Positions 44,032 through 52,287 of a DNA stretch of 64,000 nt are shown here, piece after piece; position 1 is the first letter of the stretch, and the number at the start of each line of letters is the position of its first letter. The position numbers and the translations under genes are program-made. The notes below the pieces were generated by a model. That model worked only from the letters and a program-made list of their open reading frames with translations, was not told the DNA's origin and did not search any database. Source of the stretch: Gemmatimonadaceae bacterium (lineage in GTDB: Bacteria > Gemmatimonadota > Gemmatimonadetes > Gemmatimonadales > Gemmatimonadaceae); the NCBI GenBank assembly GCA_016742275.1, contig JACVCD010000007.1:62001-126000 (forward strand), written 5' to 3'.

Positions 44032-44955
44032 TCAGTCGCCGCGCAGGCGACGCGACCACTCGTCGAGGATGGTCCGCTCGTCGAGCGTGAGACTGTCCAT
44101 GCCCTTGGCCGCAATCTTGTCGAGCACGGCATCGAGGGCCGTGCTGGGCTCGGGCGCCACCGCTGCCGGCGCACTCTGCGGCTTGGGCGACGGCTGCGGA
44201 GGACGCACCCGGGCAATAGCCGCCTTGCTTTGCGCGACGATGTCATCGATCTCGCGCTCACGTGGACGTGCCGATGTCTTGGGCACCGCACGCGGTGGCT
44301 CATCGCCGTAGTCCGGCGCCGGCGCAATGCGATTGCGGAACCGGCCAAGACTGCCTGCACTCGGCGCGCGCAGATACACCCAGCCCGCCACCATGCCACC
44401 GATGTGCGCGGCGTAGGCCGTACCACCCAGGCTGCCCGCGTCCACCACCGCCATGGTGATGTTGATCAGCGCCATGAACACCACCAGCCAGCGCACCTTC
44501 ATGGGCACGACGCCAAAGAACAGCACTTCATCGTCGGGCCAACGCGAGGCATACGCCACGGCAATGCCCAGAATGGCCGCCGATGCACCCACCAGCACAC
44601 CGCCATTCTGCTGGAACATGGAGTGGAAGGCCCACCCACCGATACCGCACCAGAGGTAGTACCAGGTGAATGTGCTCGCGCCCCAGGCCATCTCCACGCG
44701 CGGACCAAACAACCACAACGTCCACATGTTGAGCAGCAGGTGCATCAAACCACCGTGCACGAACATGTAGGTGACAATCGTCCACATGGAGCCCGACGCC
44801 ACATCACCCGACGCGTAGCCGAACCAACGGGCCATGTTCGCATCACCAACCAGGGTGGCCTGCACGAAATACACGGCCACACACGCCCCGATCAGCCAGT
44901 AGACGGCGCTCGGGGTGCGAGGAGAGTCGAATTCGTCGTAGGTGACGTACGCCAT
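44032..44955 (-). CDS. Rhomboid-family intramembrane serine protease
   Basis: The 307-residue protein has six membrane segments in residues 15-205. The catalytic Ser is in GASAAILG near residue 124 and the His in AHIGGMVAGW near 183. HGGLMHLLLNMWTLWLFG supplies the conserved HxxxN region. A long cytoplasmic tail is Pro/Ala-rich and ends in a helix with LTLDERTILDEWSRRLRGD, common in rhomboids of this type. The substrate is unknown. It lies 15 bp downstream of ddl and may be co-transcribed. Confidence 0.94.
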   Translation of the reverse strand: MAYVTYDEFDSPRTPSAVYWLIGACVAVYFVQATLVGDANMARWFGYASGDVASGSMWTIVTYMFVHGGLMHLLLNMWTLWLFGPRVEMAWGASTFTWYYLWCGIGGWAFHSMFQQNGGVLVGASAAILGIAVAYASRWPDDEVLFFGVVPMKVRWLVVFMALINITMAVVDAGSLGGTAYAAHIGGMVAGWVYLRAPSAGSLGRFRNRIAPAPDYGDEPPRAVPKTSARPREREIDDIVAQSKAAIARVRPPQPSPKPQSAPAAVAPEPSTALDAVLDKIAAKGMDSLTLDERTILDEWSRRLRGD

Positions 44956-46119: not shown

Positions 46120-46494
46120 CTACGCCGCCGTCTCCGCCAGCACAAACGCCACGATCTGCTCCAGCATGGTCGGATCGGGAATGCGATCCCATTCACGCAG
46201 CACGACCAGGCGATCCCATGGATCGAGTGTCACGTGGCGACCCGTCTTTGGCGCCTCGTGATCCACAGCCAGCCACGCCTGCCACAGCGTCATGCCGTGC
46301 ACATTGAGCACGATGCCATGGGCATCGTCCCACGTGGACGGACGAGGGTCGGCGACAAAGGCTGCCAGACAGCCGCGGCTATGGTCACGCAGAGGTTCGC
46401 CGAGCGCATCGGTGAACCGGTCGAGAGCATCGATCATGAATGAACGCACATTGAGGTGCACCCTCACCGAGGCAGCGTCGCCAGTGAGTCGCAT
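46120..46494 (-). CDS. Small protein of unknown function upstream of ddl
   Basis: The 124-residue protein is likely cytoplasmic. It has VRVHLNVRSFMIDALDRFTDALGEPLRDHSRG and a Trp-rich middle (HGMTLWQAWLAVDHEAPKTGRHVTLDPWDRLVVLREWDR). The C-terminal helix is EQIVAFVLAETAA. I do not recognise it. Codon use and position 81 bp before ddl suggest a real gene in a common transcript. Confidence 0.55.
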   Translation of the reverse strand: MRLTGDAASVRVHLNVRSFMIDALDRFTDALGEPLRDHSRGCLAAFVADPRPSTWDDAHGIVLNVHGMTLWQAWLAVDHEAPKTGRHVTLDPWDRLVVLREWDRIPDPTMLEQIVAFVLAETAA

Positions 46495-46629
46495 GGAGGA
46501 GACGGGGGACGAATCGCGTTCGTCACGAAATGCCGTGGAATTACCCCTGAATTCCGTGTGACACGAACTTCGAGGTGTGGGTACAGCGTGGCACGGATCG
46601 AATCACCCGTTTCCCGGAGCTCACGTTCC

Positions 46630-47070
46630 ATGCGACGTACCCGTTCCTTGCTCGCCACCGCGATTGTCAGTCTGGCCACGGCCAGTCTGCTGACTGCGTG
46701 CGCGGGCACCCCTGTCGACAGCACCAGTGAGGACGACAAAGCCTCACCAGCGCCGTCGCAGGGCATTGTCGCCGGCACACTGGAAGTGAAGGCGCAGAAG
46801 CCTGCACTGACACTGCGCAACACCACCGAGCTGGTGGTGGGCTACATGGTGGTGGACAAGGACCAGATGGTGATCGCCCTGTATCCGCCGTGCAACACGC
46901 AGTGTCCCACGATCGTACAGGGTGCCAGTGTCCAGGTGCCGTATAGCCAGATCAGTGGCTACACGGACAAGTCCACCGAAGCAGTCGTGATGTGGTGGAC
47001 CTATCGTCGTCAGGCCGATGGGTCATTGCGTCCCGAAAGCGCTGTGCAGACGACCCGGATCGGTCTGTAA
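46630..47070 (+). CDS. Small lipoprotein
   Basis: The start at 46630 (MRRTRSLLATAIVSLATASLLTACAG) gives a signal peptide with lipobox LTAC at about residues 21-24. GGAG is 11 bp upstream. The 146-residue protein has a short acidic spacer, then a beta-rich domain (GTLEVKAQKPALTLRNTTELVVGYMVVDKDQMVIALYPPC) with two Cys (PPCNTQC). Function unknown. The ECF sigma gene follows 55 bp later. Confidence 0.7.
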   Translation: MRRTRSLLATAIVSLATASLLTACAGTPVDSTSEDDKASPAPSQGIVAGTLEVKAQKPALTLRNTTELVVGYMVVDKDQMVIALYPPCNTQCPTIVQGASVQVPYSQISGYTDKSTEAVVMWWTYRRQADGSLRPESAVQTTRIGL

Positions 47071-47125: not shown

Positions 47126-47686
47126 GTGCAACCCCTCGACGCCGGAACACTTCACCTCGTGCTGATGCAGGCACGGCAGGGCGATCGCGCCAGCTTCGCC
47201 CGGCTGGTGGAGCATTACTATCCGCGTGCTTTGCGGTTCGCGTTGCAGATGTTGCATCACCGGGAGGATGCGGAGGAGGCTGTGCAGGATGCCTTCATCC
47301 GTGTGCATGACAACCTGGCACGGTTCCGCGAGGATGCGCCTTTCGATCCGTGGTTTTTCCGCATTCTCGGGAACCGTTGCCGCACACTCATGGCGAAGCG
47401 CAAGCGTCGTCACGAGGTGCATGAGTACGGCGATCTACCGTACGACGCCGCGAGCGAGGACAGTGCCGACATACCCGACGCCGGGTTTGCCCGAGAGGTC
47501 CACGCCGCGTTGGCATCCCTGCCACCTGAACAACGCGAAGCTTTTCTGCTCCGTCACGTGAACGACATGGATTACGAAGAGATGGCCATCGTGACCGGGG
47601 CAAAGGGCTCTACACTCCGCATGCGAGTCAAGCGCGCAATTGATACGTTGCGTGTACGACTGCGTGAGGGTGCGATCCATGAATAA
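47126..47686 (+). CDS. ECF-type RNA polymerase sigma factor
   Basis: The 186-residue protein starts at GTG. Region 2 has LVEHYYPRALRFALQMLHHREDAEEAVQDAFIRVHDNL and WFFRILGNRCRTLM. Region 4 has ALASLPPEQREAFLLRHVNDMDYEEMAIVTGAKGSTLRMRVKRAIDTLR. It directs a stress or envelope regulon. The next gene overlaps it by 8 bp (ATGAATAA), as sigma and anti-sigma pairs often do. Confidence 0.93.
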   Translation: MQPLDAGTLHLVLMQARQGDRASFARLVEHYYPRALRFALQMLHHREDAEEAVQDAFIRVHDNLARFREDAPFDPWFFRILGNRCRTLMAKRKRRHEVHEYGDLPYDAASEDSADIPDAGFAREVHAALASLPPEQREAFLLRHVNDMDYEEMAIVTGAKGSTLRMRVKRAIDTLRVRLREGAIHE

Positions 47687-48377
47687 CCAGACTCCATTCG
47701 AGCCGGGCTGCGAGCCCGGTGCAGAAAACGATCGCTTGCTGCGCCAGGTGCGCAGCGTGCTCACTCCGATGCCTGAAGTCGATCGCCGTGCGATCGCGGG
47801 CATCCTCAATGCCGTGGCGCATCGCAAGCGCACGCCATGGCAACGCTTTGTTTCCCGCTTCGATGGTGTGCGGGAATGGTGGCAGTTTTCCGTGCCACCT
47901 CTGGCGCGCGGCGCATCACTCGCTGCCGGCGCGCTGATGCTGGGCTTCGTGGCTCGCCCGTATCTCACCGGCAACACCAATGGCGTTGGCTCGGTGCCCA
48001 CGGTCGCGGTGCAGGCGGACGGTCAGCGCGCCGAATCACTCGGCGCTGCTTCCCCCATGCGCACCACGCTGCAGGCGGTCGAGGGTGGTGATGTGTCGGT
48101 GTTCCGCATTCCCACGCAGTTTGTGCTCGATGCCCGCGACATACCCAACGCGTCGAGCGTGAGCATCGTCGGTGATTTCAATGACTGGGACGTGACCACA
48201 ACACCGCTCGTGCTCGAGCGCGGCGTGTGGACGATCACCGTACCGCTCTCGCCCGGACGCCACATGTATTCATTCGTCGTGAATGGCGAGACCTGGATGG
48301 CCGATCCGCGCGCCGCGCAGGCCACTGACGCCGACTTTGGGCGCCCGGGTTCAGTCATCATCGTGCAGTCGCCCTGA
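47679..48377 (+). CDS. Membrane protein with cytoplasmic N-domain and glycogen-binding-like C-domain, probable anti-sigma
   Basis: The ATG at 47679 overlaps the sigma-factor stop. The 232-residue protein has a cytoplasmic helical N-terminus with RQVRSVLTPMPEVDRRAIAGILNAV. One membrane helix lies near residues 76-95 (LARGASLAAGALMLGFVA). The C-terminal E-set domain has SVSIVGDFNDWDVTTTPLVLERGVWTITVPLSPGRHMYSFVVNGETWMADP, the AMPK-type/CBM48 signature. Genetic coupling suggests it controls the sigma factor. The C-domain may be the periplasmic sensor. I see no zinc-finger anti-sigma motif, so that role is inferred. Confidence 0.8.
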   Translation: MNNQTPFEPGCEPGAENDRLLRQVRSVLTPMPEVDRRAIAGILNAVAHRKRTPWQRFVSRFDGVREWWQFSVPPLARGASLAAGALMLGFVARPYLTGNTNGVGSVPTVAVQADGQRAESLGAASPMRTTLQAVEGGDVSVFRIPTQFVLDARDIPNASSVSIVGDFNDWDVTTTPLVLERGVWTITVPLSPGRHMYSFVVNGETWMADPRAAQATDADFGRPGSVIIVQSP

Positions 48378-48386
48378 GGTGATGCC

Positions 48387-49073
48387 ATGACCATTCGATT
48401 CACGACTTCGCTGTCTGTTGGCGCATTGGCGTTGCTTTGCAGCCTCGCTCCGGCGACATCCGCTGTGTACGCGCAGGATGCTGTGCCATTCGACGCCATT
48501 GGCGACGACGGAACCCGCACCGCCATTCGCACCATCATTGCCGATGCGGCTGCACGGGGACTGCCGACTGCGCCGCTGGTGACCAAGGTGCGCGAGGGTA
48601 TCGCCAAGAAGGCTGCCCCTGACCGCATTCGCACCGCCACATCAGCGCTGGCCGGTCGCCTGGCAGTAGCGGCCGACGCGCTGGCTCCCACGCGCTCCAA
48701 CGAGGAGCTGGCCGCTGCAGCCGATGCGCTGCAGGCCGGTATTCCGGTCAGTACGCTGCGCGACATGCGGAAGCTCTGGCCCGGCAAGCCGCTCACCGTG
48801 CCCCTCGGCGTGCTGGCCGAAATGGTGCAGTCGGGCGTGTCCAAGCAGGTGGCCACCCAACGCGTACGCGACCTGCTGGTCAAGGGCGCCACGGCCGGTC
48901 AGTTCGCGTCATTGGGCACGAATGTGCGCGATGATATTGCTTCGGGACTCGCGCCAGATGCTGCCATGGAGCTACGCTCCAAGAGTGTCCTTTCCGTGCT
49001 CAATTCTCAGCAGGGTCTGTTCAACGGCCTCACGCCTGCCGCGCCGACGAACATTCGTCCCCGCAACAAGTAA
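48387..49073 (+). CDS. Exported Ala-rich helical protein in the ECF operon
   Basis: The 228-residue protein has a signal peptide ending SAVYAQ. The mature part is helical and Ala-rich. It has repeated-looking segments (RTAIRTIIADAAARGLPTAPLVTKVREGIAKKAA, VLAEMVQSGVSKQVATQRVRDLLVKGATAGQFASLG). It ends TPAAPTNIRPRNK. I do not recognise it. It lies 9 bp after the putative anti-sigma gene. Confidence 0.75.
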   Translation: MTIRFTTSLSVGALALLCSLAPATSAVYAQDAVPFDAIGDDGTRTAIRTIIADAAARGLPTAPLVTKVREGIAKKAAPDRIRTATSALAGRLAVAADALAPTRSNEELAAAADALQAGIPVSTLRDMRKLWPGKPLTVPLGVLAEMVQSGVSKQVATQRVRDLLVKGATAGQFASLGTNVRDDIASGLAPDAAMELRSKSVLSVLNSQQGLFNGLTPAAPTNIRPRNK

Positions 49074-49107
49074 TTCCATACGGTCGTTCGGGAGCGTCAT
49101 CGCACTG

Positions 49108-50292
49108 GTGACGCTCCTGAGCGCCTCATTGTCTGCGCTCGCGGCACAGCCCGTGATGCCGCAAGGCACCATGGCGTGGATGGACGTGGGCGGCGCACGC
49201 GTACAGCAGCCGCAAAGCAGTTTGCGCACCGCCGGATCTTTTGGTGCCGGCGTATGGCATGGTCGCTCGCGGTGGTCAATTGCCAGCGAAGGCACGGCTA
49301 CGCTTGCCGACGACAGTCTGGCCGCCACACAGTGGGTCCTGCGCACGTCATTTGCTCCAGCTTCGCGACTGCGTACGGACATCGACCTTGCCGCCACCAC
49401 CAACGGGCTGGTGATGCCGGGCGTGAATGGCAATCGCAGTGTGTCCGGTCGTCAGAGCGTACTGTTCGGTCCCATCTCGGTGTTTGGTGTCGCTGGCACG
49501 GGACGCACCGAACGTTTCCTCATGACCTCGCGCGGTAACAGCTTTTCGGCCGGTACCGACTGGCAGACATCGCACCGCTCTGGTCTCTGGCGTGTAGCGG
49601 TCACGGGTCAGCGCGCATTCACTGATGACTGGATGCTGATGGAAGCGTCGGGCTTGGTGCTCATACGTGAAGCCGCCGCCTACACGCTCGATGACATATC
49701 AGTCGACATGTCATGGCGAACGAATCGCTTCTCCCTCGGTGCGAGTCGCAGTTGGAGAAAGGGAGCAGGTGCCACGTCCGGCAGCGCCAGAGGGCACAGC
49801 ATCACCGCCGCATGGCAGGCCACACCAAGTGTGATGTTGATTGCGCAGGGCGGCGAACAACTCGCGGATGTTGTGCGTGGTGTACCACAGGCGCTCTATA
49901 CCGGTGTCGGTGTGCGCTGGAATCCCTTGCGTGTACGAGGCGTGCAGCGCGAAGCGCGCGCATTTGCCGACACTCGCAACATGGCACCCAATGTCGTGCC
50001 AGAGCTGCGCGGGGATGAGGTATTGCTGCAGCGACGCGAGGGCGAAGGTGTGCTCACCATCACCGTGCTGGCCATGCAGGATGCGGTGGTGGAGATCGCA
50101 TCGAGCGCCAATGAGTGGACACCCACGCGGGTGTCGCATTCATCGGCGGGTTTTGTGCACAAGCTCACACTGTCATCCGGCACGCATCGCGTAGCGGTCC
50201 GTGTGAATGGTGGTGAATGGCGTGCGCCGCGTGGCCTGGTCGCGGTGGATGACGAGTTTGGTGGAAAAGCAGGATTGGTGGTAGTGCCGTAG
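49108..50292 (+). CDS. Exported protein ending in a glycogen-binding-like domain, start uncertain
   Basis: The open frame is clear to 50292, but no ATG, GTG or TTG lies between the upstream stop and GTG at 49108. That start would leave an unusually short signal peptide (MTLLSASLSALAAQ). The codons before it read IRSFGSVIALVTLLSASLSALAAQ, an ideal signal peptide if ATA at 49078 is the initiator. The body is beta-rich with alternating strands, such as SRWSIASEGTATLADD, and could form a barrel. The C-terminal 80 residues (VVEIASSANEWTPTRV...GTHRVAVRVNGGEWRAPRGLVAVDDEFGGKAGLVVVP) parallel the C-domain of the putative anti-sigma. It may be the outer-envelope partner. Confidence 0.7.
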   Translation: MTLLSASLSALAAQPVMPQGTMAWMDVGGARVQQPQSSLRTAGSFGAGVWHGRSRWSIASEGTATLADDSLAATQWVLRTSFAPASRLRTDIDLAATTNGLVMPGVNGNRSVSGRQSVLFGPISVFGVAGTGRTERFLMTSRGNSFSAGTDWQTSHRSGLWRVAVTGQRAFTDDWMLMEASGLVLIREAAAYTLDDISVDMSWRTNRFSLGASRSWRKGAGATSGSARGHSITAAWQATPSVMLIAQGGEQLADVVRGVPQALYTGVGVRWNPLRVRGVQREARAFADTRNMAPNVVPELRGDEVLLQRREGEGVLTITVLAMQDAVVEIASSANEWTPTRVSHSSAGFVHKLTLSSGTHRVAVRVNGGEWRAPRGLVAVDDEFGGKAGLVVVP

Positions 50293-51515: not shown

Positions 51516-52208
51516 TCACACCGCCCGGAACTCCGTGGAGTACGCGATCTCCTGCGAGCGCTCTTCGGTCAGAGTGGCGTTGGTATGGTCTTCCGCGCCA
51601 TTGGTCCGCGCCCACTCACGAAAGCCAGCCGGTGCTCGCTGAATTTCGTGAATTCTCGCGTAGCTGATCGATTCGATCTCCTGCCATCCGTGCACATCAG
51701 CCAGATCCGCACGCACCAGAGATGCGGCGGACAGTCGCACATGATCCACCGTCGCCGATTGCAGATGTGCACCTTCGAGGGACGCGGCGATCATGTTGGC
51801 GCCAGTCGGCACGGCATGCTTGAGATTGGCACCATCCAGACGTGCCCCCTGCAGATTGGTGTGGCGAAAACTGGCGTGCTGCAAATTGGCACCGCGCAGA
51901 TCCACTCCTTCGAGCCACGCCCCATCCAGGTTCACACCCGCAAGCGACTGACCGTTTTTCACCAGATTGGCCAGCGCATCAATGCGACCACCACTGCCGC
52001 CTTTGCCCTGCGCGCTGTTCACCACCTGCCAGGCCTGGTAATTGGAATCAGTCAGCGCCTGCGCATTGCGAATTTTATCTGAAGCCAATCGTTCGCGACG
52101 GCTCGCCCAGAACTGATAGGCGCCGAACACGAAGATGATGATCTGCCAGGACTTGACCAGGTTCGCAATGAAGTCGATGAACCGGGATGTATCAGCGGTC
52201 TGTACCAT
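51516..52208 (-). CDS. Membrane-anchored pentapeptide-repeat protein
   Basis: The start at 52208 (MVQTADTSRF) gives 230 residues. A membrane helix lies near residues 20-36 (WQIIIFVFGAYQFW). A stretch of pentapeptide repeats (VNLDGAWLEGVDLRGANLQHASFRHTNLQGARLDGANL) covers residues 95-175 with the A(N/D)LXX periodicity. The C-terminus is charged. Function unknown. Confidence 0.85.
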   Translation of the reverse strand: MVQTADTSRFIDFIANLVKSWQIIIFVFGAYQFWASRRERLASDKIRNAQALTDSNYQAWQVVNSAQGKGGSGGRIDALANLVKNGQSLAGVNLDGAWLEGVDLRGANLQHASFRHTNLQGARLDGANLKHAVPTGANMIAASLEGAHLQSATVDHVRLSAASLVRADLADVHGWQEIESISYARIHEIQRAPAGFREWARTNGAEDHTNATLTEERSQEIAYSTEFRAV

Positions 52209-52287
52209 CAACGCATGATGTGCTGACCGACACACTGATCCAGCCGAGTTACCGTTCGGTTGCGACTTCGTTACACCCGGCGCATCA

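Follow-up and report, generated by a model that had tools for sequence, protein, structure and literature searches.

A conserved ECF sigma factor gene set of Gemmatimonadota encodes a putative membrane anti-sigma factor and a predicted outer-membrane barrel, each carrying an E-set domain

Four same-strand (+) genes at positions 47126-50292 of the window (the whole stretch of DNA that was analysed, 64,000 nucleotides) form a real, conserved gene set in a Gemmatimonas-like genome of 4.57 Mb, whose closest named relative among those compared is Gemmatimonas sp. UKL202c. Their order is S-A-H-B, where S stands for an ECF sigma factor, A for a putative membrane anti-sigma factor, H for a helical protein that is exported and B for a predicted outer-membrane barrel protein, with related E-set domains in A and B. 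While our confidence in the identity of these parts is high, it is moderate for their reading as a signalling system, and we give about an even chance to the view that they make up a four-part trans-envelope sigma/anti-sigma pathway. An earlier note on this DNA had suggested signal transfer across the envelope from the two E-set domains, and because E-sets are placed at both membranes and the set is conserved, this is still the most economical reading. The note also knew of no described system of this form; nothing relevant came up when the literature was searched for an S-A-H-B operon or for an anti-sigma factor with a CBM/glycogen-binding domain, and the system is new as far as the literature was searched. 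Absent from that note were the paralogous copies in the same genome, the barrel nature of B and the occurrence of the set outside Gemmatimonadota.

Table 1. Features of the operon, in window positions, with the basis for each assignment.
Feature	Position	Strand	Basis
ECF sigma factor S, 186 aa, GTG start	47126..47686	+	Sigma70_r2, Sigma70_r4_2, TIGR02937
A, putative membrane anti-sigma factor, 232 aa	47679..48377	+	overlap with sigma, CBM models, TM segment
Predicted TM segment of A (LARGASLAAGALMLGFV)	47901..47951	+	hydropathy scan
E-set/CBM48-AMPK domain of A, W170 and W206	48108..48368	+	family models
H, exported all-helical protein, 228 aa, signal peptide ~1-30	48387..49073	+	AlphaFold
B, predicted outer-membrane barrel protein, 394 aa, probable GTG start	49108..50292	+	ortholog comparison; AlphaFold
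Predicted 14-stranded beta-barrel of B, residues 21-271	49168..49920	+	AlphaFold, Foldseek
C-terminal E-set/CBM-like domain of B, residues 303-393, W337 and W371	50014..50286	+	AlphaFold, conservation

S is an ECF sigma factor, with region 2 (Sigma70_r2, PF04542, 1.1e-15) and region 4 (Sigma70_r4_2, PF08281, 2e-13) recognised above cut-off, as was the sigma70-ECF model TIGR02937 (98.6 bits, cut-off 42.9). Its gene is overlapped by the membrane-protein gene, as had been read from the sequence, by 8 nt. A consists of an N-terminus of about 74 residues, probably cytoplasmic, a TM helix at ~75-91, a linker and an E-set/CBM48 domain at 144-230. This last domain belongs to the CBM48/AMPK family, in agreement with the original description of the outer domain, since both family models score above their cut-offs (AMPK1_CBM 38.1 bits against 26.8, CBM_48 37.9 bits against 22.4). 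A single hydrophobic TM segment is present in 62 of 63 members of the A family, with a median start at residue 65. Adjoining its sigma gene and combining an N-terminus with one TM helix, A has the layout of an anti-sigma factor, in a membrane orientation that we infer. No recognisable anti-sigma domain was detected in the N-termini of 42 Gemmatimonadota A proteins, window A included; ten Gemmatimonadota A proteins begin with a YLDGEL-type motif, a motif that occurs in anti-sigma domains. In a distant relative (L090, 4057-4728), read across one in-frame TAG, the usual zinc anti-sigma domain zf-HC2 was found at 23.1 bits (cut-off 22.2). Operon position, topology and the zf-HC2 match of this relative suggest that A binds the sigma factor.

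The window contains no ATG near the expected start of B. The likely start is the GTG at 49108, because the 69% identical ortholog of locus L010 has an ATG there; an ATA/ATT start was rejected and this codon preferred. The AlphaFold model of B (pLDDT 80.9) shows 14 strands followed by a low-confidence helix and the E-set. A Foldseek search with this model gave 275 matches at E<=0.001, and among the matches listed all were outer-membrane barrels, including VhChiP, BcsC and OmpG. When the barrel folds were compared, the Z score was 19.4 for CymA (242 residues, 3.7 A), 19.1 for OmpG and about 18 for FadL, rows within 1 Z being counted as tied. B is thereby predicted to be a 14-stranded outer-membrane barrel of the CymA/OmpG/FadL class with a signal peptide. 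It differs from these proteins in sequence (~6-8% identity) and in its additional C-terminal, probably periplasmic E-set, and the shared fold shows no function. The placement of this domain follows from barrel topology: because the number of strands is even and the domain lies after the last of them, it is probably in the periplasm, and the same geometry disfavours exposure at the cell surface. In the window the B E-set reaches only 13.7 bits with AMPK1_CBM, below the cut-off, while its same-genome paralogs lie above it, and 36 of 39 B proteins match this family at E<=0.1 (best 3.6e-12). For this reason the claim that an exported beta-rich protein ends in a related domain was right. Its description as an exported partner needs amending; B is exported and does bear an E-set, but it is not a free protein, since the E-set is attached to the predicted outer-membrane barrel.

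H, which had been described as an exported helical protein, has a signal peptide and 11 helices in its AlphaFold model (pLDDT 88.1); export signals occur in most H and most B proteins of the family. Searches of Pfam and NCBIfam gave no family match for H. Against the PDB, Foldseek gave none at E<=0.001, the best being a designed helical repeat at 0.004, and a designed helical repeat was also the best match (Z 10.5) in a VIA fold search. These similarities may reflect only a common helical arrangement. No natural solved fold was matched in the fold searches, and families outside those listed are possible. The G-x-P/S turns conserved in the H family at 58, 118 and 150 fit a repeat protein, and the model indicates a confident helical-repeat-like fold.

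Taken together, these features support a model in which A would be an anti-sigma factor crossing the inner membrane once, with its N-terminus holding the ECF sigma factor and its periplasmic E-set taking the input. B, as a porin-like 14-stranded barrel, would project its C-terminal E-set into the periplasm, and H would bridge or mask the E-sets of A and B. The trigger would arise at the outer membrane, from an oligosaccharide (possibly an alpha-glucan) passing through or binding the barrel, or from the state of the barrel itself. It would alter the contact between the B E-set, H and the A E-set; A could then be exposed to proteolysis or change conformation, so freeing the sigma factor, which would transcribe its own operon. 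To our knowledge, trans-envelope regulation of a sigma factor via an outer-membrane barrel has been described only for TonB-dependent receptors.

The FecA-FecR-FecI type of system (FoxA-FoxR-FoxI, PupB-PupR) likewise encodes, in neighbouring genes, a barrel with a periplasmic domain, a single-pass anti-sigma factor with a periplasmic input and an ECF sigma factor. FoxA-FoxR offers a precedent for contact between the signalling domain of a barrel and the portion of an anti-sigma factor that lies in the periplasm (PMC11637429). In contrast, B has 14 predicted strands rather than the plugged 22-stranded barrel of a TonB-dependent receptor, its E-set is C-terminal where the receptors have an N-terminal STN domain, and H is an extra, helical protein. 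No FecR match was found in A, which matched CBM families only, and neither a plug nor an STN match was found in B. The set would thus act like cell-surface signalling without being a member of that family, because FecR, STN, plug and the 22-stranded receptor are all missing.

Conservation of the gene association in Gemmatimonadota was a test that the earlier note had set beforehand, and the set was found again: 64 neighbourhoods, including the window, were examined, of which 60 further ones were scanned with models of S, A, H and B. These loci were chosen by a match to H, so that A-H adjacency was often known beforehand, while S and B were unselected. The order S-A-H-B was found in 38, S-A-H in seven, B-S-A-H in four and S-A-B-H in four, along with small variants. 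S was detected in 59 of the 64 neighbourhoods and adjoins A in every one of them (59/59); of the five without S, four are truncated by the end of a contig and the fifth is an orphan B-H pair. B lies nearby in 58 of 64, the other six loci being S-A-H without a nearby B, and B may thus be dispensable for the core. Among 200 Gemmatimonadota genomes searched, A was present in 129 and H in 122, with both in 119, A only in 10, H only in three and neither in 68 (Fisher 2e-38, ignoring phylogeny).

Two variants bear on how the genes are joined or repeated. At L048 (3717-5657), one of the loci of S-A-H order, H and B lie in one uninterrupted ORF with a signal-peptide-like stretch mid-frame, either a natural fusion or a lost stop. 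A second H gene follows B in L031, L053 and L064.

Within the genome of the window, an AMPK CBM family search found six E-sets, and there are three complete quartets (the window, L008, and L009 with B first) as well as the orphan B-H pair (L007:3559-5760, contig C13). The orphan pair has neither sigma nor A; its neighbours are a hybrid histidine kinase and a divergent gene of periplasmic-binding-like type, and no other E-set in the genome is as AMPK-like as that of its B (44.4 bits). Trees were built from 14 Gemmatimonas operons and outgroups, and whether S, A, H or B was used, the three paralogous operon types fell into the same clades (support 0.94-1.0), which indicates that parts do not swap and that the copies are inherited as intact units. 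It could be argued that the linkage has nothing to do with signalling, S and A being a standard pair and H and B a structural or transport pair that merely belongs to the regulon, and the orphan B-H pair, present without sigma or A in the same genome, favours this view. We consider this highly improbable: the E-sets of A and B are homologous, the set is co-inherited by paralog type, and H stays with A even at loci without B.

Outside Gemmatimonadota, loci were obtained from a scan of a genome collection with the A alignment, followed by the same S, A, H and B models. The order S-A-H-B was found in Candidatus Eisenbacteria (L077) and S-A-B-H in Myxococcales (L113), Balneolales (L083, and L091, which ends at a contig end) and Salinivenus (L094). 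Nitrospirae have S-A-H (L084, L078), as, more weakly, do a deltaproteobacterium (L090) and Chitinispirillaceae (L102), and S-A was seen in Thermotoga and Acetothermia bins. Because these are mostly MAGs, single assignments may be binning errors. Overall the set occurs, frequently in more than one copy, in about 60% of the Gemmatimonadota genomes sampled, and it is also present in other diderm phyla. If the model holds, porin-like channels gain a direct line to transcription, and a poorly studied phylum, Gemmatimonadota, a first handle on its signalling.

The membership of the E-sets in the AMPK beta/CBM48 family raises the question of glucan binding. In AMPK, the residues in contact with the sugar are W100, K126, W133, L146 and T148; mutation reduces binding, and W100 and W133 mutants lose glycogen binding (PMC2642990). 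Window A keeps W170 at the W100 position and W206 at the W133 position, and window B keeps both tryptophans (W337 and W371), although here the domains are fused to a membrane protein or to a barrel and the remaining contact residues have changed, the K126 and T148 equivalents among them. Across 56 B proteins W337 is conserved in 100% and W371 in 92%. The W100 equivalent is a weak marker of binding, since its invariance in these proteins may have structural causes. For the W133 equivalent, conservation is 71% in A and 92% in B proteins; among the 56 A proteins that have a B nearby, 18 lack it, and these include the A of every one of the four B-S-A-H operons. Every B without it has a partner A without it (5/5 versus 13/51, p=0.002), which favours the four-part pathway, although the five look like one clade. 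Judged from these residues, glucan binding cannot be a universal requirement for A, and our confidence in any identity of the ligand, alpha-glucan included, is low. Cytoplasmic glycogen branching is likely to be present in this genome, where a PF02922 search found one 720-codon open frame of GlgB size.

These residues also bear on whether A might sense glucan directly. RsgI/SigI, the polysaccharide-sensing system of Clostridium thermocellum, resembles A in having an extracytoplasmic carbohydrate-binding module on an anti-sigma factor, and C-terminal CBMs are documented on RsgI anti-sigma factors (PMC4711584). By analogy, the CBM of A would bind periplasmic alpha-glucan and free the sigma factor, while B, as a glucan porin bearing a capture domain, and H would be no more than regulated uptake parts. 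Such a role would suit an A domain that lies above the cut-off for both CBM48 and AMPK CBM and keeps, in the window, the tryptophans whose mutation abolishes binding in AMPK, as well as a B barrel closest, tied with OmpG, to the cyclodextrin channel CymA. We nevertheless find it unlikely, given that 18 of the 56 A proteins have lost the W133 equivalent, the altered K126 and T148 positions and a conserved set without a glycoside hydrolase or an inner-membrane transporter. Nor is A an RsgI protein: it has no RsgI_N match and its partner sigma is ECF. RsgI/SigI is Gram-positive, with a SigI that is not ECF, an RsgI_N domain and other CBM families, and it lacks a partner in the outer membrane as well as a helical one.

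The envelope parts diverge faster than the sigma factor: between the window and L010, sigma is 98% identical, A 76%, H 79% and B 69%, and sigma is 89-98% identical among orthologous operons of the genus. Fast divergence of this kind would also be expected if A, H and sigma monitored outer-membrane assembly or the distance between the membranes in the manner of RseA/RseB, with B as a reporter barrel and E-sets that dock proteins rather than sugar. Retention of the system in the clade that lost the tryptophan signature, and the existence of S-A-H without B, point the same way. RseA-RseB-RpoE shares with the set an ECF sigma factor, a single-pass anti-sigma factor and a periplasmic partner, but here A bears an E-set, H is all-helical and matches no family, and there is a barrel protein as well. 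Searches of the set found no RseA/RseB-type domains, and the presence in one genome of several parallel copies whose barrels have diverged fits different inputs better than a single general stress response; we therefore regard envelope monitoring as a rather poor prospect. Returning to the four-part pathway, its most specific form would be an undescribed, widespread class in which a non-TonB porin-like barrel reports alpha-glucan, or its own occupancy, through an E-set/helical-repeat/E-set relay to an ECF sigma factor, with parallel copies serving different ligands. This form is put forward tentatively, as something possible that we would not yet bet on.

As for autoregulation, in seven operons of one subgroup (L008, L011, L013, L016, L017, L019 and L020) GTGACG stands about 16 bases ahead of TGTTGT/A, immediately upstream of where sigma starts, plausibly the ECF promoter of that one subgroup. 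The start codon lies only a few bases past this element, which suggests a leaderless transcript. No clear promoter-like element of this type was seen in the operon subgroup of the window itself, and a search of its own genome for GTGACG-N15..17-TGTTGT gave two matches against three for the reversed control, so that no regulon was found.

Three further genes lie close to the operon. A small lipoprotein-like gene (46456-47070) is found just upstream of sigma and occupies the same position in L010, L012 and L018, which belong to the same operon subgroup. A rhomboid-like membrane protease gene (44032-44955, minus strand) is situated about 2 kb upstream of the operon. Finally, a pentapeptide-repeat gene lies near the operon at 51516-52235 on the minus strand, and a homolog of it is located between H and B in L015.
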